Below, piece by piece: positions 1 to 29,260 of a stretch of 32,585 nucleotides of DNA. The notes below the pieces were generated by a model. It worked only from the letters and a program-made list of their open reading frames with translations. It was not told where the DNA came from and ran no database searches. Position numbers and translations under genes: made by a program. How positions within the stretch are numbered: position 1 is the first letter of the stretch; each line of letters begins with the position of its first letter. Origin of the DNA: Candidatus Aegiribacteria sp. (GTDB taxonomy: Bacteria; Fermentibacterota; Fermentibacteria; Fermentibacterales; JCC-6); assembly GCA_030594645.1 (NCBI GenBank), contig JAUVEU010000028.1, positions 1-32,585 on the forward strand, given 5' to 3'.

Positions 1-453
1 AGAACAGATGTGATACTCGGCGACTATCACAAGACGGTGCTTCCCGGAACATACGACGTACAGGTGACAGTGGATGGATACTTACCAAAAACAGTAACTG
101 ATGTTTTAGTAGGTCCGGAGGAAAGGGTTGAAGTCAGTTTCGTTCTTGATATGCTGGGCATTGAGGAAGGTGATACAGGAGGTCAGAGCTTACTCGGGAA
201 CCTTTCTGTTTTCCCAAATCCAGTTTCTAATTCCTGTGAGATCAGGCTTCCTGTAACAGGAGTTGATGGAACCGTTAATATCTACTCTATTACCGGTCAT
301 CTGGTGTATAGACTGGATGTATCCTCACAGGCAACATCCATAGATTGGAATTGCAGGGGAGAAAACAGAACTGAGATTCCGTCTGGAGTTTATATTGTAA
401 AATTCAATTCCGGCGGGATATCAACGACTGAGAGATTCATCATCAACAGGTAA
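1..453 (+). CDS. Secreted protein, C-terminal part: carboxypeptidase-regulatory-like domain plus sorting domain (5' end outside window)
   Basis: The reading frame is open from the first base, so this is the 3' end of a longer gene; no start is visible. The first ~55 residues look like a transthyretin-like (carboxypeptidase regulatory/PEGA) domain, with GDYHKTVLPGTYDVQV and a following GYLPKTV, as is common after M14 carboxypeptidase domains. The last ~85 residues form a type A sorting (FlgD-Ig-like) domain: FPNPVSNSCEIRL, then a strand with TGHLVYRL, then PSGVYIVKF and a final basic strand ending INR. Such domains direct outer-membrane secretion and surface anchoring in T9SS-bearing bacteria; whether this organism has a T9SS cannot be seen here. 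The catalytic part, if any, lies upstream. M14 peptidase is a guess from the regulatory domain alone. Confidence 0.75.
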   Translation, partial: RTDVILGDYHKTVLPGTYDVQVTVDGYLPKTVTDVLVGPEERVEVSFVLDMLGIEEGDTGGQSLLGNLSVFPNPVSNSCEIRLPVTGVDGTVNIYSITGHLVYRLDVSSQATSIDWNCRGENRTEIPSGVYIVKFNSGGISTTERFIINR

Positions 454-487: not shown

Positions 488-617
488 CTACTCCGCTATC
501 TCGAATGAGAGCATATCTTCTCTGCTGGAGCAAGAGCATCCTTTGCACGAACCGGCAGGGTTGTCAGTGAATGTTCCTATCTGGTAGATGAGAGTGCTTA
601 CCACCCATGCAAGAATA
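488..617 (-). pseudogene. Fossil of feoB 3' end fused in frame to feoC 3' end
   Basis: Read on the minus strand this stretch encodes the C-terminal FeoB segment ILAWVVSTLIYQIGTFTD followed by NPAG, and then, in the same frame, the FeoC tail SCKGCSCSSREDMLSFEI, ending AE and a TAG stop at 490-488. The intact genes in this window carry the FeoB part at 4539-4608 and the FeoC part at 4229-4289. The junction lies in GAACCGGC (plus strand), present at both places 257 bp apart, so a deletion across this microhomology would create the join. Of about 14 base differences in the 40 aligned codons, about 12 are synonymous. A TGA lies just upstream in frame and there is no start codon or ribosome site, so the piece is not expressed as a gene here. 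Confidence 0.85.
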
Positions 618-707: not shown

Positions 708-3170
708 TCATTCCCCCTTCACATACTCGTCAAACCACCTGAGCTGTTCCCACAACACGTGTTCCAGGCTCTCCTGAGCCCGGTAGCCGTGATCTTCGAA
801 TGGCAGCAGTACCAGTCGGGCTGTGCCGCCTGACCCGCGTACCGCTTCAAAAAAGACTTCGGACTGGAACGTAAGGGTTCCCGGGTTGGAGTCATCATCA
901 CCATGGATTATCAGGATGGGCTCGTTGATCTGGTCAGCAAAAAATGTAGGCGAGAGCTGGATATATGCATCCCTTGCCTCGAAAAGGGAACGGCGCTCGG
1001 ACTGGAAGCCGAAGGGCTGGTTGGTTTTGTTATAAGAGCCGCTGCGTGCTATACCTGCCTGAAAAAGATCAGTATGTGCCAGTAGATTGGCAACCATCAG
1101 CGCGCCGTGGCTGTGGCCCATGATACCAATCCTCTCCGGATCAGCAACTCCCATTTCAACTGCTTTTGCAACAACAGCCTCAGCGTCGGCCACCAGCTGG
1201 GGCACGAATGTATCATATGTTGTCTCCGGGTCACCCAGCATAGGCATGGAAGTTCGGTCCAGGACTGCATAACCCCGCAACAGGAAGTAAAGGTGTGAGG
1301 CACCGTAGATACGCATAAAGCGCTGGGCTGAACCTCTCACCTGCCCGGCTGTAGTCGTGCCGGAGTACTCAAGCGGGTAAGCATCTACCACCGTGGGCAG
1401 TGGTGTGCCCTCCTCGTAACCCGGAGGCAGATACAGGTGGAAGCTCAGCGGCACACCGTCCTCGCGCTCGAAGTGAACGATACGCTTCTCGATCTCCCGC
1501 AGCTGTGGTATCGGGTCCTCGAACCGGGTAATCGGTTCCATGGAAAGTGCTCTCGCGGCCTCCCCGGCGGAAGCTTCAATCTCTTCACCCAGCGTAGCCA
1601 GATAATAGTTGGGCACATCCGTGCTGGATTCGGAGCGCAATACAAAGCGGTTCTCAGATCCGGCAAACCCCTGGAAGTACTCGTATCGATCAGGATCGCA
1701 GCGGAACAGACGCTCGGTTTCACCGGTTTCCAGATTTCTCAGATCAAGGAAGGGCCTGTCGCCCTGCTCAGTAGCACCTGTGCCGCTGAAGTAAACAGCG
1801 TCACCAGTCTGATGCATCACCCCCTGGCCATTTGCCAACCTGCGGAAAACAGGATTGCCGGGATCACCGTACCGGTCTCCAACATCACGGTCGTACCATA
1901 AGCGTGCTGTACCATCGTCTACATCGAGGAGCCAGACGTAAAACCAGCGACGCATACGTTCATATTCACAGAGCATGAGTGTTCCACCCTGTTCACCCCA
2001 GGCCATCTGCCAGGGCAGGAGACGGTGTTCAGCACGAAAAACCTCTTCAGCCTGACCGTTAAAGGGTGCACAGAGCCGCATGAGCCGATCGCGGTGAGGT
2101 ACTTCAGCAACAGGATCGCCATCGTCCAGAGCCTCTACCCAGTAAAGTTCATGCGGGGAAGTGGCACGCCAAGAAACAGAGCGCGGCCCAACATTCACAC
2201 CGTGAGCGGGAACGGCATCGGCCAGAGGAAGTGAGGCAATATCAGCCACAAGCTTGTCCTCTGTGCTCCACACCTCAATCTCTAAAGCAAACCGCCACCA
2301 GGCTACCTCGTGAGACCACGGGCCAACAACGTACTCCACAAGAATGTACTCGCCATCCGGGGAGAACTCGGCATTGCAGTAGTGTGTCCCGTCGCCAATA
2401 ACGCTAACACTGCCATTGAGCGGATCAACGATTACAAGCTCAGATTTGCAGTAGTAATCGAACAAAACATCATCGTATGCGGTTTGAAGCAGGTTACGCG
2501 CCTCGTATGTGGATCGTGCTGCAGCACCTATCCCCTCTGCCACCTTCGGCCCTGCCGGAATAGCCGGTGGCGAGGGTTCTGCCCCCCGCTCAGGGATACG
2601 GAGCACCAGCAGACGCTCCTGATCAGGCAGCCACTGAACAGGATTGCCAAGAAGTGGATTAAGAGCCACACCCTCTATTTCAGCCAGCTCTCCCCCCACC
2701 GAGCCAACCCACAGCCCAAGGTGGTCGGAGTGTCCCACAGTAAGGGCAAAATGGTTACCGTCAACGGTAAATGCCACACCGTGTACCTCGGCACCATCCG
2801 GTAAGTCCAGTGGAGTAACAGCACCCCCATCAACCTGCACCAGGCGCGGAGAAGTACCCCCGTGACGACCATGTACGCAGTTCAGCGCAGGGTTAACCCT
2901 TATTCCGGCCAGCTTATACATAGGAGCAGCAAGCTCAGCCAGAGAGGGATAAAGCGCAGGATCTGCCAGAAGCAGGTACTCCCCTGTTGGAGCGGTCCAC
3001 ACCCAGGGAAGCTGCGCTGCATACAGCACATCAAGTAAATCTTCAGGAGGAGACTGCCACGCAGTTACCAGCTCCATATCAGCATCGGACGCTACTGCAC
3101 CCGGCAATAAAACAAAAGCTCCCAAAGTGGTTGCAAGCAAACCTGATAATGTCATGAAGTATCTTTTCAC
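708..3170 (-). CDS. Secreted S9 family (glutamyl endopeptidase-like) serine peptidase
   Basis: An 820-residue peptidase exported by Sec. The GTG start at 3170 is chosen because GGAGGT lies 5 bases upstream and the following residues (VKRYFMTLSGLLATTLGAFV, cleavage after AVA) form a signal peptide; the frame runs 40 codons further upstream without such signals. The N-terminal ~500 residues form the S9 beta-propeller. The C-terminal alpha/beta hydrolase domain has the nucleophile motif GHSHGA (Ser near residue 687), the acid in HGDDDSN (~759) and the histidine in EDHGY (~794). The stretch AGIARSGSYN followed by PFGFQSERR is typical of the S9 glutamyl endopeptidase subgroup, which cleaves after acidic residues; the substrate here is not known. 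It is a single gene, tail-to-tail with the secreted protein at 1-453. A role in peptide scavenging outside the cytoplasm is inferred. Confidence 0.88.
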   Translation of the reverse strand: MKRYFMTLSGLLATTLGAFVLLPGAVASDADMELVTAWQSPPEDLLDVLYAAQLPWVWTAPTGEYLLLADPALYPSLAELAAPMYKLAGIRVNPALNCVHGRHGGTSPRLVQVDGGAVTPLDLPDGAEVHGVAFTVDGNHFALTVGHSDHLGLWVGSVGGELAEIEGVALNPLLGNPVQWLPDQERLLVLRIPERGAEPSPPAIPAGPKVAEGIGAAARSTYEARNLLQTAYDDVLFDYYCKSELVIVDPLNGSVSVIGDGTHYCNAEFSPDGEYILVEYVVGPWSHEVAWWRFALEIEVWSTEDKLVADIASLPLADAVPAHGVNVGPRSVSWRATSPHELYWVEALDDGDPVAEVPHRDRLMRLCAPFNGQAEEVFRAEHRLLPWQMAWGEQGGTLMLCEYERMRRWFYVWLLDVDDGTARLWYDRDVGDRYGDPGNPVFRRLANGQGVMHQTGDAVYFSGTGATEQGDRPFLDLRNLETGETERLFRCDPDRYEYFQGFAGSENRFVLRSESSTDVPNYYLATLGEEIEASAGEAARALSMEPITRFEDPIPQLREIEKRIVHFEREDGVPLSFHLYLPPGYEEGTPLPTVVDAYPLEYSGTTTAGQVRGSAQRFMRIYGASHLYFLLRGYAVLDRTSMPMLGDPETTYDTFVPQLVADAEAVVAKAVEMGVADPERIGIMGHSHGALMVANLLAHTDLFQAGIARSGSYNKTNQPFGFQSERRSLFEARDAYIQLSPTFFADQINEPILIIHGDDDSNPGTLTFQSEVFFEAVRGSGGTARLVLLPFEDHGYRAQESLEHVLWEQLRWFDEYVKGE

Positions 3171-3330
3171 TGATGACCTCCATATTCCAGTGCTGACGCG
3201 ATTGTTTTCATGAAGCTTCGAATGACCGCTGCATCTCCTTAGACCAGGTAACAGGTATAGTCGGCTCAAATCGAATTGAAACAATCTCAAAAGCGTACCG
3301 GATGAAAGTCACAGAATACTCGGGGCTTGA

Positions 3331-3717
3331 TCAATTATTTGGTGTTTCTCTCAGTCTTACCAGAATGCCTTTGATTGCGCTTCTCAAGTCGCTTATATGA
3401 TCTTCGCAGATGTTATAGATAAGCTCAGCATCAAGATCGAAATAGAGGTGACTTAGAAAATCCCTTACTCCGATGGCGCCTTTCCAGTCGATTTCGGGAT
3501 GCTCATCCATCAAGGATCTTCCGCCATATTTCTCAAAGCGTTTAAGGTTCTCTCCAATGGTGATAAGCATGAGGGCGATTCCATCGAGCCTGTCAATTCC
3601 ATAATCATCTTTGAGAAAATCACCGGGAATCTGAATACTGCTGAAGCGGCGCTCAACTTTATTGATACTCTCCAGAATCTGTTCAGAAATGTCTTTCAGC
3701 AGTTCTAAATCAGACAT
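3331..3717 (-). CDS. hepT: HepT-like toxin (DUF86), partner of MntA-type antitoxin
   Basis: A 128-residue all-helical protein of the HepT/DUF86 family, the ribonuclease toxin of the HepT-MntA system. The diagnostic RX4HXY motif is present as RDFLSHLY (Arg85, His90, Tyr92). In studied members the partner nucleotidyltransferase adds AMP to the tyrosine and silences the toxin. The ATG at 3717 is preferred over one 13 codons upstream: it has a strong ribosome site (GGGAGGTG, 4-5 bases before) and overlaps the antitoxin stop codon by 8 bases (ATGTCTGA), the usual coupled layout. It is the second gene of a two-gene operon with the gene at 3710-3997. Family assignment is secure; activity is inferred. 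Confidence 0.88.
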   Translation of the reverse strand: MSDLELLKDISEQILESINKVERRFSSIQIPGDFLKDDYGIDRLDGIALMLITIGENLKRFEKYGGRSLMDEHPEIDWKGAIGVRDFLSHLYFDLDAELIYNICEDHISDLRSAIKGILVRLRETPNN

Positions 3718-3997
3718 ACACCACCTCCCGCTCGATACGCTTCTTAAGCAAAGCATTCATAGAGGTTCTGTAACGCACCAGGTCAACGGGAGCATTAAGA
3801 GCTTCTTCAAGATACTCCTTAATATGAATCATTGCGTAAAGATCAGGCGGCATTTCGACTACAATATCAACATCACTGTTCTTTCCTGCTTCATTACGGG
3901 CTACTGAGCCGAACACCCCTAGACTTTCGATCCCAAAACGCTCCTTGAGAAAGGGGTTCAGTTTTCTCAGCACAGTCAGGGTTTGTTCAAGACTCAT
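3710..3997 (-). CDS. mntA: MntA-like minimal nucleotidyltransferase antitoxin
   Basis: A 95-residue minimal nucleotidyltransferase. The signature GSX10DXD is intact: Gly30-Ser31, then Asp42 and Asp44 (GSVARNEAGKNSDVD), which bind the metal and nucleotide. Members of this family AMPylate the HepT toxin encoded next to them. The ATG at 3997 is preceded by GGAGGTGAAG. The gene overlaps hepT by 8 bases. Upstream there is a possible promoter with a dyad over the -35 box (see 4022-4050), which would suit autoregulation. Such pairs are scattered by horizontal transfer and sometimes act in phage defence; nothing in this locus proves that role. Confidence 0.88.
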   Translation of the reverse strand: MSLEQTLTVLRKLNPFLKERFGIESLGVFGSVARNEAGKNSDVDIVVEMPPDLYAMIHIKEYLEEALNAPVDLVRYRTSMNALLKKRIEREVVYV

Positions 3998-4113: not shown

Positions 4114-4140
4114 TAAGTGCCGCAAGTGACATCCGGCCCC
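4114..4140. repeat. Intergenic repeat motif TAAGTGCCGCAAGTG, copy 1
   Basis: TAAGTGCCGCAAGTGAC followed by ATCCGGCCCC. The same 17-base motif (one base different) occurs at 25883-25899 and 29229-29245. All three lie downstream of the stop codon of a minus-strand gene, in the same orientation. Inside it AAGTG is repeated with a 9-base period. The rest of 3998-4211 shows no gene. Confidence 0.7.
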
Positions 4141-4211
4141 GGGTATGTTCACTGAAGTACATATGGGGATGGAGACTTTTGCCGGGCCATACTCTATCTA
4201 AAAACGAAATA

Positions 4212-4448
4212 TCAGTTTGCTTGCACCACTATTTCAAATGAAAGCATATCTTCTCTGCTGGAGCAGGAACAACCCTTGCATGAACCGGCTGTGGAGCATT
4301 CAGCGGATACAGCACGGATCCTTTTCTTCCGCAGAAGAACATCAAGAACCGGCTCCATAGCGGCCGGTTCCATTTGAAAGTGACCCGAAATTTCGCGGAG
4401 GGAGAGCCTGCCGTGCTTTTCGAGTAACTCAAGCACTTCGGTAAGCAT
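4212..4448 (-). CDS. feoC: FeoC-like winged-helix protein with Cys cluster
   Basis: A 78-residue FeoC-type protein. Residues 1-48 form a winged helix (MLTEVLELLEKHGRLSLREI and following). The second part has four cysteines, C51, C57, C60 and C62, in the pattern C-x5-C-x2-C-x-C, resembling the iron-sulfur or iron-sensing cluster of FeoC proteins. FeoC is thought to bind FeoB and regulate its stability or activity. The ATG at 4448 is chosen because it overlaps the feoB stop as TAATG; the frame also extends 28 codons upstream inside feoB, but that part is feoB in another frame. It is the last gene of the iron operon. A near-identical tail of this protein is found in the fossil at 488-617. Confidence 0.85.
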   Translation of the reverse strand: MLTEVLELLEKHGRLSLREISGHFQMEPAAMEPVLDVLLRKKRIRAVSAECSTAGSCKGCSCSSREDMLSFEIVVQAN

Positions 4449-6754
4449 TACGCGGCAACTTTCATTCTTCGGGACATAAGCTTCAGGCTGATGTAAATCA
4501 ATCCAAGAATTCCAATGGCTATTGATATCCACATTGCGGAACCGGCAGGGTTATCGGTAAATGTTCCTATCTGGTAGAAGAGAGTACTTATCACCCATGC
4601 AAGAATACTGAGGTAGATCGTGGAGAACATGGCCCAGCGGAGATTAGTTTCACGGTAGATAGCCGCAATGGCAGCTACACATGGCGCGTAGATAAGTATG
4701 AACAGGAGGTAGGCGTAAGCTCCAACTTTTCCATTGAAGTGTTCCTGTATGGCGGTTAGAGTGTTGCTTTCGATCTCTATTTCTTCCGCTGCTTCATCTG
4801 TGTTGCTCAGATCATCGCTTATCTCAACACCAATCGGATCTCTCAGCGCTCCTCCGAAATCACTGAAACCGTTCGGGATCGCAGCAAAGGATTCAGCGAT
4901 TCCAGCCCAGAAATCGAAAGGTTCTTCTTCTGCTTCAGAACTGCTCTCCTGTGCATTCATTCCACTGTACAATGTATCGAGTGTGCCGACAACCGCTTCC
5001 TTCGCGAAGATGCCTGTGAACAGACCGACAGCCGCCGGCCAGTTATCGGAAGTGAGACCCATCGGGTAGAATACGGGAGCTATTGTTTTACTAATGGCAG
5101 AAAGAACAGAGTTCTCTGAATCCTGATTGCCGAAGCTGCCGTCCGTTCCAATTGAACCGAGAAAGCTGAGTATGATTACAACCGCGATGATCACTTTACC
5201 CGCTCTTTGTAAAAAGCTCTTCAGACGGTAGATCGTATGGTACATTATTCCCCTGAATGTCGGGAGATGATACGGGGGCAGCTCCATTACAAAGGTTGAT
5301 GTCTCACCCTGAAGGATCGTTTTCTTGAAGAGAAGCCCAGTTCCCACGGCCAGCAGGATACCCACCATGTACAGACTGAAGAGTACAGGACCTCCCTGTC
5401 TGGGAAAGAATGCCGCTACGAAAAGAGTGTAGACCGGTAATCTGGCCCCGCAGGACATGAATGGGTTCATCATGATAGCGAGAATTCTGTCTCTGTTGTT
5501 TTCGAGTGTGCGTGTGGCCATTATCGCCGGTACATTGCACCCGAACCCCACGAGCATTGGAATGAATGCTTTACCGGGAAGACCTATTACCCTGAGAAAC
5601 CGATCCATTACGAATGCGGCTCTCGCCATATAACCTGAATCCTCAAGGAGAGAAAGGCAGAAGAAGATCAGGAAAATAGGTGGTATGAAGGTCGCGACTG
5701 TCTGAATACCGCCGCCTATACCGTCAGACAGGAAAGTAACCAGAATTTCCGGCAATTTGAATATCTCAAGGAGAACCCTGAATCCGTCCACGAAAACAGT
5801 TCCCGTTAAACCATCGAAAAAATCAATGAAAGGAGCGCCGACATGTATCGTGATGACAAACATCATGTACATAACACCGAGGAAGATAGGTATTCCGAGA
5901 ATTCTGTTCAGAATCACCATGTCGATTCTGTCAGATACATTTCTTCGAACTTCACTTGTTCGATGCACTACATCCTTTGCGAGACCGTGAATGAAACCGT
6001 ATCTTCCATCGGCCATGATGATATCCATGTCATCACCGATATGCTTTTCGACCTGTTCTATTTCGGATTTCAGAGAGTCACAGGGAACAGAGTCACCGCA
6101 TAATTCAATTGCGTACTCATCATCTTCGAGTAACTTTATAGCAAGCCATCTGGGATCTACATTGTTTTTTTCAGCAATCTGTTGTACTCTGTTCTGAATG
6201 AGCTGTATCGCTTTTTCAAGTACAGAATCGTAAGCAACCTTCGTTTCAGGGATCGAGTGGTTCATACTTTCCCTGTTGATTACATCCTTCAGTTCATCGA
6301 TTCCTTTGTTTCTTGAAGCGACGATAGGAATAACAGGACAGTCGAGGTGTCTGGACAGATGCTCGATCTCGATCTTGATTTTACGTTTTGCCGCAAGGTC
6401 CGTCATATTAAGCGCCACAACCATTGGAACCTTCATCTCAAGCAGCTGGGTTGTAAGAAAGAGATTTCGCTCCAGATTGGTTGCGTCCAGAATGTTTACT
6501 ATAAGATCAGGGTGTTCTGTGAGAATGTACTTTCTTGCAATTGATTCATCTATTGAGAATGCGGTAAAGGAATAAATACCTGGCAGGTCAGTTACATCAA
6601 CCTCCAAGTTATCATGTTTATAGTTGCCTTCAATTCGATCCACAGTTACGCCGGGCCAGTTGCCGACCCTCTGACGGGAACCGGTCAAAGCATTCAGAAG
6701 CGTTGTTTTACCGACATTAGGATTACCGGCGATCGCGATTCTAATGTTTTTCAT
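4448..6754 (-). CDS. feoB: Ferrous iron transporter FeoB
   Basis: A 768-residue inner-membrane Fe(II) transporter. The N-terminal G domain has GNPNVGKT (residues 10-17), DLPG (56-59), NMTD (116-119) and a G5-like VASRNKG (~145-151). A helical linker domain follows, then the membrane part with two Gate repeats; the conserved cysteine is in GFGCNVPAIMATR, and MNPFMSCGARLPVYT follows. An acidic cytoplasmic segment (about 40% Asp/Glu near residues 600-665) sits before the last helices. The ATG at 6754 is chosen because it overlaps the feoA stop as ATGA and has GGAG upstream; a start 5 codons earlier is possible. Stop and feoC start overlap as TAATG. Iron-dependent control by the DtxR-type regulator of the same operon is inferred from the operators at 7031 and 7843. 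Confidence 0.95.
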   Translation of the reverse strand: MKNIRIAIAGNPNVGKTTLLNALTGSRQRVGNWPGVTVDRIEGNYKHDNLEVDVTDLPGIYSFTAFSIDESIARKYILTEHPDLIVNILDATNLERNLFLTTQLLEMKVPMVVALNMTDLAAKRKIKIEIEHLSRHLDCPVIPIVASRNKGIDELKDVINRESMNHSIPETKVAYDSVLEKAIQLIQNRVQQIAEKNNVDPRWLAIKLLEDDEYAIELCGDSVPCDSLKSEIEQVEKHIGDDMDIIMADGRYGFIHGLAKDVVHRTSEVRRNVSDRIDMVILNRILGIPIFLGVMYMMFVITIHVGAPFIDFFDGLTGTVFVDGFRVLLEIFKLPEILVTFLSDGIGGGIQTVATFIPPIFLIFFCLSLLEDSGYMARAAFVMDRFLRVIGLPGKAFIPMLVGFGCNVPAIMATRTLENNRDRILAIMMNPFMSCGARLPVYTLFVAAFFPRQGGPVLFSLYMVGILLAVGTGLLFKKTILQGETSTFVMELPPYHLPTFRGIMYHTIYRLKSFLQRAGKVIIAVVIILSFLGSIGTDGSFGNQDSENSVLSAISKTIAPVFYPMGLTSDNWPAAVGLFTGIFAKEAVVGTLDTLYSGMNAQESSSEAEEEPFDFWAGIAESFAAIPNGFSDFGGALRDPIGVEISDDLSNTDEAAEEIEIESNTLTAIQEHFNGKVGAYAYLLFILIYAPCVAAIAAIYRETNLRWAMFSTIYLSILAWVISTLFYQIGTFTDNPAGSAMWISIAIGILGLIYISLKLMSRRMKVAA

Positions 6755-6999
6755 TCTAACTCCGAACATTCAGTCTTCGCATCAATAATCAGAACGTCAG
6801 CCTCGCTTTTTCTCAATGTGATCTTCTGACCCTTCAGTTCGATTTCAACAGGGTCTCCCATAGGCGCTTTTCTGAGAAGCCTTAGCCGGCAGCCTTTTAC
6901 GAGTCCCATTCTCAGCAGTTTGTGACGGTATGTTTTGCTTCCCTGTTCGTATCCTGTGATCATTGCTTCGGAACCGATTTCAAGATCACCGATCTTCAT
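6751..6999 (-). CDS. feoA: FeoA, SH3-like Fe(II) transport accessory protein
   Basis: An 82-residue FeoA-domain protein (SH3-like fold) that assists FeoB. Family features include the N-terminal IGDLEIGSEAMITGY, the central HKLLRMGLVKGCRL (the conserved R-x-MG-x-x-x-G) and the C-terminal strand ITLRKSEADVLII. The ATG at 6999 has AAAGGAAATCTT before it. It overlaps feoB by 4 bases. It sits 67 bases after a second FeoA-domain gene, and a putative DtxR operator (7031-7046) lies in that gap, so it may have its own promoter. Confidence 0.92.
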   Translation of the reverse strand: MKIGDLEIGSEAMITGYEQGSKTYRHKLLRMGLVKGCRLRLLRKAPMGDPVEIELKGQKITLRKSEADVLIIDAKTECSELE

Positions 7000-25882: not shown

Positions 25883-25899
25883 TAAGTGCCGCAAGTGAC
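25883..25899. repeat. Intergenic repeat motif TAAGTGCCGCAAGTG, copy 2
   Basis: TAAGTGCCGCAAGTGAC, identical in its 17 bases to copy 1. It starts 8 bases downstream of the stop codon of the minus-strand secreted protein gene at 25907-26485. Confidence 0.7.
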
Positions 25900-25906
25900 G
25901 ACCCTA

Positions 25907-26485
25907 TTATATAGCAGCCTTGATCCTGCCCCATGTGATATGCTCAAGAGTGTTCGAAGTGTAGCTTAACTCAATATCGTCGATGTACCAGTAATGAGCG
26001 TCAGTTGCAATGATATGAAATGCGAATTGAACTGTTTTGCCAGACCATGAAGCATCAAGGGTTTCAGTCTGCTCATACCATTCAAAACCGGTATAGGTAC
26101 CAGCATCATTTTCGCTCCAGAGTACTATCCAGTTACCGCCGTTGATGTCTCTGACTTCGGTAAAGGCATCTCCATTATCCACCTGGACAAAGTAGTTATA
26201 ACTGCCGCTCCACCACCAGGTGAAATCGAATTCACCTGCTGCCGGAAGGGTAAACTCAGGTGTGATGGCTCGAGTATCATGTGGCCACGGCGCATGGTAG
26301 TTGTACTGCAGGCTGAAGTCACCGGTGTGAGCCTGGTATTCATTGTCATACAGGGCCCAGTTGGCAGTACCTGTTATGGTCCAGTCACTGATGTTTCCAT
26401 CTTCAAAGCCATCCGTCCAGATTATCTCGGCAAATGAAATTGAGGTACATACAACCAGGAAAGTCAATACAAACTTATTCCGCAT
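25907..26485 (-). CDS. Secreted choice-of-anchor-J / MAM-like lectin-fold protein
   Basis: 192 residues; ATG at 26485 behind GAGGAGTAAAGT. Signal peptide MRNKFVLTFLVVCTSISFAE. The mature part is one jelly-roll domain of the choice-of-anchor J/cleaved-adhesin type: DGFEDGNISDWTITGTANWA at the start, HTGDFSLQYNY, a W-rich core strand (FDFTWWWSGSYNYFVQVD) and YWYIDDIELSY at the end. These domains bind carbohydrate or partner proteins on the cell surface. A short tail TWGRIKAAI follows the domain and is not part of it; it may be a sorting or anchoring tag (guess). Divergent from the S41 gene; the 270 bases between them are AT-rich without visible gene. Confidence 0.8.
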   Translation of the reverse strand: MRNKFVLTFLVVCTSISFAEIIWTDGFEDGNISDWTITGTANWALYDNEYQAHTGDFSLQYNYHAPWPHDTRAITPEFTLPAAGEFDFTWWWSGSYNYFVQVDNGDAFTEVRDINGGNWIVLWSENDAGTYTGFEWYEQTETLDASWSGKTVQFAFHIIATDAHYWYIDDIELSYTSNTLEHITWGRIKAAI

Positions 26486-29228: not shown

Positions 29229-29245
29229 TAAGTGCCGCAAGTGGC
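29229..29245. repeat. Intergenic repeat motif TAAGTGCCGCAAGTG, copy 3
   Basis: TAAGTGCCGCAAGTGGC, followed by GTCCGACCCC, which matches the ATCCGGCCCC after copy 1. It lies 16 bases downstream of the stop codon of the minus-strand gene at 29261. Confidence 0.7.
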
Positions 29246-29260
29246 GTCCGACCCCATGTT

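Follow-up and report, generated by a model that had tools for sequence, protein, structure and literature searches.

A probable remnant of a feo operon that resembles a FeoB–FeoC fusion in Candidatus Aegiribacteria

Introduction

Can a short piece of DNA in which two gene ends share one reading frame be taken as the trace of a fused protein? The question is raised by a locus of Candidatus Aegiribacteria sp. (contig JAUVEU010000028.1). The window, that is, the whole stretch of 32,585 nucleotides analyzed here, carries an intact feo operon and in addition a relic on the minus strand at positions 488–617, in which the 3′ end of feoB is joined to the 3′ end of feoC. The initial annotation considered the relic to be the fossil of a natural in-frame FeoB–FeoC fusion, derived from a second feo locus or from a relative and preserved only at its 3′ end. 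We compared the relic with the intact feo genes of the same genome (G000) and with related genomes.

Results

The relic and its joint

The feoB-derived part of the relic (549–617, minus strand, 69 nt) is 91% identical to positions 4539–4607 of the window and 89–94% identical to feoB of six congeners. The feoC-derived part (493–556, minus strand, 64 nt) codes for the Cys-rich end SCKGCSCSS and is 86% identical to positions 4226–4289; the frame is closed by a TAG stop at 490–488. Both parts overlap at 549–556 in the 8-nt sequence GAACCGGC (read on the plus strand), and the two copies of this sequence in the intact operon of the window lie 257 nt apart. The joining of the FeoB and FeoC C-termini in one frame at an 8-base repeat, as initially annotated, is therefore correct. 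At the joint, the final part of FeoB and the first part of FeoC are missing. When the genome was searched with the relic at E up to 0.001, only the intact feoB (E = 1.1e-21) and the intact feoC (E = 6.9e-15) were found besides the relic. With such values, the resemblance to feoB and feoC is not due to chance.

The joined frame comprises 44 open codons from position 622 to the stop codon and is directly preceded by an in-frame stop. Homology to feoB starts at 617, and no feoB homology was detected in the spacer between the relic and the adjacent S9 gene (618–707). Only 69 of the 2322 nt of feoB and 64 nt of feoC are left and a full-length frame is absent. The relic has the characteristics of a gene remnant, namely, partial homology to a functional gene and truncation.

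We searched for the relic in 60 genomes, of which 10 gave some match. In the congener G017 we found the same relic with both flanks and the identical joint (92% identity over 281 nt; relic at L013:7391–7516). Here too an in-frame stop is located just upstream of the joined frame. Since relic and joint are present in both genomes, an assembly error of a single genome can be ruled out.

Genes surrounding the relic

The window starts with the 3′ part of a gene for an M14 zinc carboxypeptidase (1–453, plus strand), which runs toward the relic and lies in a region colinear with L013 of G017. The copy of G017 matches Pfam PF00246, and its PF18962 secretion tail scores just under the cut-off. The 5′ part of the gene is found on contig C53 of the window's genome; the contig ends share an exact overlap of 15 nt. 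In the M14 gene of G000 (L084, which is contig C53, from position 5954), codon 7 of the frame open in G017 is a TGA, and a later ATG may serve as the start of the gene.

On the other side of the spacer follows an insert, which separates the relic from the intact feo operon. It contains a gene of the S9 prolyl oligopeptidase family (708–3290, minus strand, PF00326) and a HepT/MntA-like pair. The HepT-like protein (3331–3756, minus strand, PF01934, NF047751 below cut-off) is the probable toxin half and gave no hit with PADLOC; the MntA-like nucleotidyltransferase (3710–3997, minus strand, PF01909, PADLOC PDC-S09, NF047752 below cut-off) is the probable antitoxin half. The insert is followed by a copy of a dispersed 27-nt repeat (4114–4140, plus strand) and by the 3′ bit (4152–4202, plus strand) of a conserved gene of 215 amino acids, which has no name in Pfam or NCBIfam and is called K in the following. 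This bit is 92% identical to the gene end of G017 and 88% identical to the full copy of the same genome (contig C53:26232–26876). Next to it are the intact feoC (4212–4532 as listed, minus strand, PF09012) and the intact feoB (4448–6769, minus strand, TIGR00437 and NF007105 above cut-off). The listed feoC reading frame begins at a GTG within feoB. Judged by the aligned relatives, the true start is likely the ATG in the TAATG which overlaps the feoB stop near 4448.

The dispersed repeat TAAGTGCCGCAAGTG(A/G)CGTCCGACCCC is intergenic and is present in the window at 4114–4140, 25883–25909, and 29229–29255. With at most one mismatch, there are 11 repeat cores in G000, 12 in G017, 17 in G018, 11 in G015, and 6 in G007 versus 0–3 in G010, G016, G009, and G008; the reversed pattern as a control gave none except one each in G018 and G010. 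The copies occasionally form tandem or inverted pairs. We take this repeat to be REP-like.

Search for a fused FeoB–FeoC protein

If the relic were the end of a fused gene, full-length FeoB proteins ending in SCKGCSCSS might be expected in relatives. In 42 genomes of the phylum, many of them incomplete, we found no full-length FeoB with the FeoC tail of the relic. The joined 40-amino-acid peptide was matched across the joint in 2 of these 42 genomes only (E up to 0.01), and these two matches are the relics themselves with their 44-codon frames. All other hits at this threshold are confined to one half of the peptide, FeoB or FeoC, and 10 of the 42 genomes have a FeoB end of this type which is unfused and whose match stops at the joint. 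At the permissive threshold of E up to 1, the 19 genomes of the genus gave 10 additional weak hits across the joint (E = 0.026–0.97) in frames of 32–140 amino acids, some with stops and none as long as FeoB. These we read as chance matches. Only 9 of the 19 genus genomes have a closely related FeoB (at least 92% identity); the sample of FeoB ends is therefore small, all the more as genomes are incomplete. In the excerpts of the Feo literature consulted, a FeoB–FeoC fusion is not mentioned, although one may still be in print.

Junctions in relatives point to a second feo allele

In G007 feoC is convergent to the end of K, a plain feo–K junction. The gene order in G017 is K, M14, relic, S9, and HepT/MntA-like pair. 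The order in G000 is the same across a contig break and continues with 51 nt from the end of K, after which the intact feo operon follows. In G017 the contig ends at the equivalent of window position 4136 and feo is found on another contig, which starts at the equivalent of 4306. Thus, the junction of insert, K bit, and intact feo is visible in G000 only.

The congener G018 has an intact feo operon (feo A) in which feoB and feoC are separate, overlapping genes and the 257 nt that separate the repeats are all in place. Its segment L012:8431–8561 is 93% identical over 131 nt to the feoC end of the relic together with the flank, reaching into the last ~28 nt of M14. The FeoC of G018 ends with FEIAE, a stop, and LCK, and the identical pattern is found in the relic, whereas the FeoC of the window ends with FEIVVQAN. 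As end and flank of the relic match G018 and not the feoC end of the own genome, we suggest that the relic is the tail of a feo allele beside M14 (M allele) and that the intact feo operon of the window stems from an allele beside K (K allele). The initial suggestion of a second feo locus is thus right insofar as the donor was a second locus or allele. We infer this two-allele history from the junctions of a few draft genomes. Three of the 19 genus genomes (G000, G017, and G008) have an M14 of the close form (84% or more), and G008 shows no feo or K homology in the 9.2 kb around M14. In none of the genomes examined did we find a complete M-allele feo operon adjoining a complete M14 gene.

Substitutions in the relic

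We counted substitutions against five intact operons (G000, G018 feo A, G015, G010, and G016), leaving out G007 (feoC only), G017 (feoC end missing), G009 (feoC cut), and the partial copy of G018. Over 126 nt, the relic of G000 differs from the feo genes of the same genome by 12 synonymous and 4 nonsynonymous changes. The corresponding numbers are 12 and 1 for G018 feo A, 8 and 6 for G015, 11 and 12 for G010, and about 14 and 14 for G016; in the latter two genomes the feoC end differs. The initial annotation had given about 12 synonymous and 2 conservative changes. The synonymous excess relative to the own genes and to G018 shows that these lines were working genes for most of the time after their separation and is not evidence of a fusion. 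The further claim that the donor was under protein-level selection until recently is compatible with this excess insofar as selection acted for most of the past.

The two relics differ from each other at 11 of 132 sites (8%), with 6 synonymous and 5 nonsynonymous changes. For 11 random changes without selection, 8.1–8.6 nonsynonymous changes are expected (P = 0.015–0.04, depending on the transition rate). This is a weak deviation from plain neutrality as 11 changes are few. At 8%, the divergence is much smaller than in the flanking genes, with their dS of about 0.3, and near the dS of the insert genes; had the relics drifted freely from the split of the two lineages onward, more differences would be expected. 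Most simply, exchange of the relic between the lineages together with the insert would account for the low divergence, although a degree of constraint on the relic would do so as well.

The feo end and its inserts

Between G000 and G017, dS is 0.14 for the S9 gene, 0.05 for HepT (based on 4 changes only), and 0.13 for MntA. The seven flanking genes have values of 0.29–0.44 (FeoB 0.31, K 0.32, M14 end 0.34, four further genes on the side of K 0.29–0.44). From this difference it follows that the insert was gained or exchanged after the lineages had split.

Rearrangements at the feo end are also found in other genomes. In G018 a defence-like insert (L012:8735–13471) coding for a HEC-01-like AAA and DUF4276 pair and a Schlafen AlbA_2 protein is located between the feo operon and a partial copy of the feo end of 704 nt, which abuts K. 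The copy is 99.7% identical with two differences, both near the feoC end. In G015 the last 33 nt of feoC occur a second time (88%), separated from the gene by 333 nt. The feo end thus rearranges readily, and copies of the tail lie beside inserted DNA in G018 and G015. By Pfam, no integrase is present among the six insert proteins of G000 and G018; NCBIfam and PADLOC likewise gave names for insert proteins but no integrase. The insert of G015 was read only as DNA. Entry of the inserts by recombination between feo alleles fits best. In G009 (L015:3700–3960) only about the first 20 codons of feoC are left, followed by unrelated sequence.

Discussion

Very probably, an ordinary feo operon, in which feoB and feoC were separate genes, lost its middle part by a deletion between short repeats and left the relic as a non-coding remnant. 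We suggest the following steps. A rearrangement would have brought, or left, the K-allele feo operon together with the insert (S9, HepT/MntA-like pair) beside the M allele. The M-allele operon would have been cut off within feoB at window position 617/618 with loss of everything upstream. From the remaining tail, 257 nt could have been lost in a single event through slippage or annealing at the 7–8-nt GCCGGTTC repeats in feoB and feoC, which would have brought the two frames together by accident. Such a deletion has a chance of one in three to keep the frame, and for this reason the relic resembles a fusion. Finally, G000 and G017 would share the relic by descent or, as the low divergence suggests, by a later exchange together with the insert.

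Several observations agree with the deletion. The parental arrangement has a direct repeat at both ends of the lost segment and the joint has one copy of it. The bases shared at the breakpoints number 8 in the feo operon of the own genome and 7 in G018 feo A, with a spacing of 257 nt in both; of the five intact operons, four have this spacing between the feoB and feoC parts, and G010 has 260 nt. Breakpoint pairs 150–400 nt apart which share at least 8 nt are rare (18 of 51,872 in the own feo operon and 9 of 54,372 in G018). That the joint lies exactly on such a pair fits a repeat-mediated deletion.

What speaks for a natural fusion is that neither relic has a stop within the joined frame and that the synonymous excess indicates a protein-coding past. 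However, an agreement of frames is expected in one of three cases, and the joint leaves out the last part of FeoB and the beginning of FeoC. Moreover, among the 42 phylum genomes the joint is matched at E up to 0.01 only by the two relics, while 10 genomes have the unfused FeoB end; the related operon of G018 is unfused and a stop lies upstream in both relics. The idea of a donor with a fused or tail-swapped FeoB–FeoC protein therefore finds no support in these genomes, and a surviving 3′ end of such a gene is the least probable of the explanations considered here. Only slightly better stands a local duplication of the present 3′ end of feo followed by a deletion, which we regard as improbable. 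The same strand, the distance of only 3.7–4 kb, and the same 8-nt repeat would suit it, but the relic differs from the own copy at 16 positions over 126 nt, and its end and flank match G018 feo A while the own feoC end is followed by the K bit. We set simple duplication aside because the flank of the relic follows G018 feo A. The alternative mentioned in the initial annotation, a chance deletion in a copied fragment, comes closer, except that the fragment would derive from the end of a different allele instead of having been copied from the present feo genes.

Selection might also have preserved the remnant as an RNA element or a small peptide. The deficit of nonsynonymous changes between the relics, the small number of differing sites (11 of 132) in comparison with the flanking dS near 0.3, and a plus-strand fold which is slightly better than that of mononucleotide shuffles (−35.1 vs. 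a mean of −30.7, SD 3.8) would be in line with such a role. Yet 11 changes are too few to carry much weight and exchange of the insert explains the low divergence; the joined frame is preceded by a stop, and the minus-strand fold is like that of mononucleotide shuffles (−30.2 vs. −30.5). We found no promoter- or terminator-like sites in 380–760 and no Rfam family across the window. A terminator, a promoter, an RNA family, or a stable fold was hence rejected as the reason for retention. Maintenance by selection is in our view highly improbable, and the relic is taken to be inert, being without a clear sign of function.

A further idea is compatible with the truncation and deletion proposed above and would be their cause. 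The 3′ end of feoC in Aegiribacteria could be a recurrent attachment or recombination site at which small cargo islands with defence-like and toxin–antitoxin-like genes arrive through recombination between feo alleles. The duplicated tails would then be scars, and the relic would be the tail at the far end, traveling with the island. Copies of the tail flank inserts in three lineages (G000/G017, G018, and G015), and the insert genes have lower dS (0.05–0.14) than the flanks (0.29–0.44). Against this stand the absence of an integrase among the six insert proteins (by Pfam), the lengths of the feoC-tail repeats in the three lineages, which range from 33 to 704 nt and resemble the outcome of homologous or ectopic recombination more than a fixed core, and the lack of a common named gene in the inserts of G000 and G018. 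We regard this idea as speculative and rather unlikely, though less so than the alternatives above.

Remnants of this kind are ordinary. Like truncated pseudogenes of bacteria, the relic is a 3′ piece with a working counterpart elsewhere and shows truncation and internal deletion; it differs from usual gene remnants in that two genes are joined in frame, which we take as accidental. RecA-independent deletion between short direct repeats is described in PMC5426353. The loss of 257 nt with one copy of a 7–8-nt repeat kept is alike, and here the process is known from its outcome alone. Excerpts from the Feo literature report FeoAB fusions, some of them with a Cys-rich membrane protein, and Cys-rich C-terminal domains of FeoB (PMC8980893, PMC8749426). 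By analogy, a Cys-rich tail on FeoB would be conceivable, but none was found here; those are complete proteins, whereas no complete gene was found for the relic. Genomic hotspots with defence or toxin–antitoxin cargo are the subject of published papers. The feo end shares with them variable cargo between conserved genes but differs in that no integrase was seen and that the tails of the anchor gene are duplicated at unequal length.

In summary, an ordinary repeat-mediated deletion in the tail of a gene can mimic an in-frame gene fusion, and a synonymous excess in such a fragment shows only that it descends from working genes. If the pattern of insertion sites is true, the feo end would be a marker for small defence or toxin–antitoxin cargo in a little-studied phylum.
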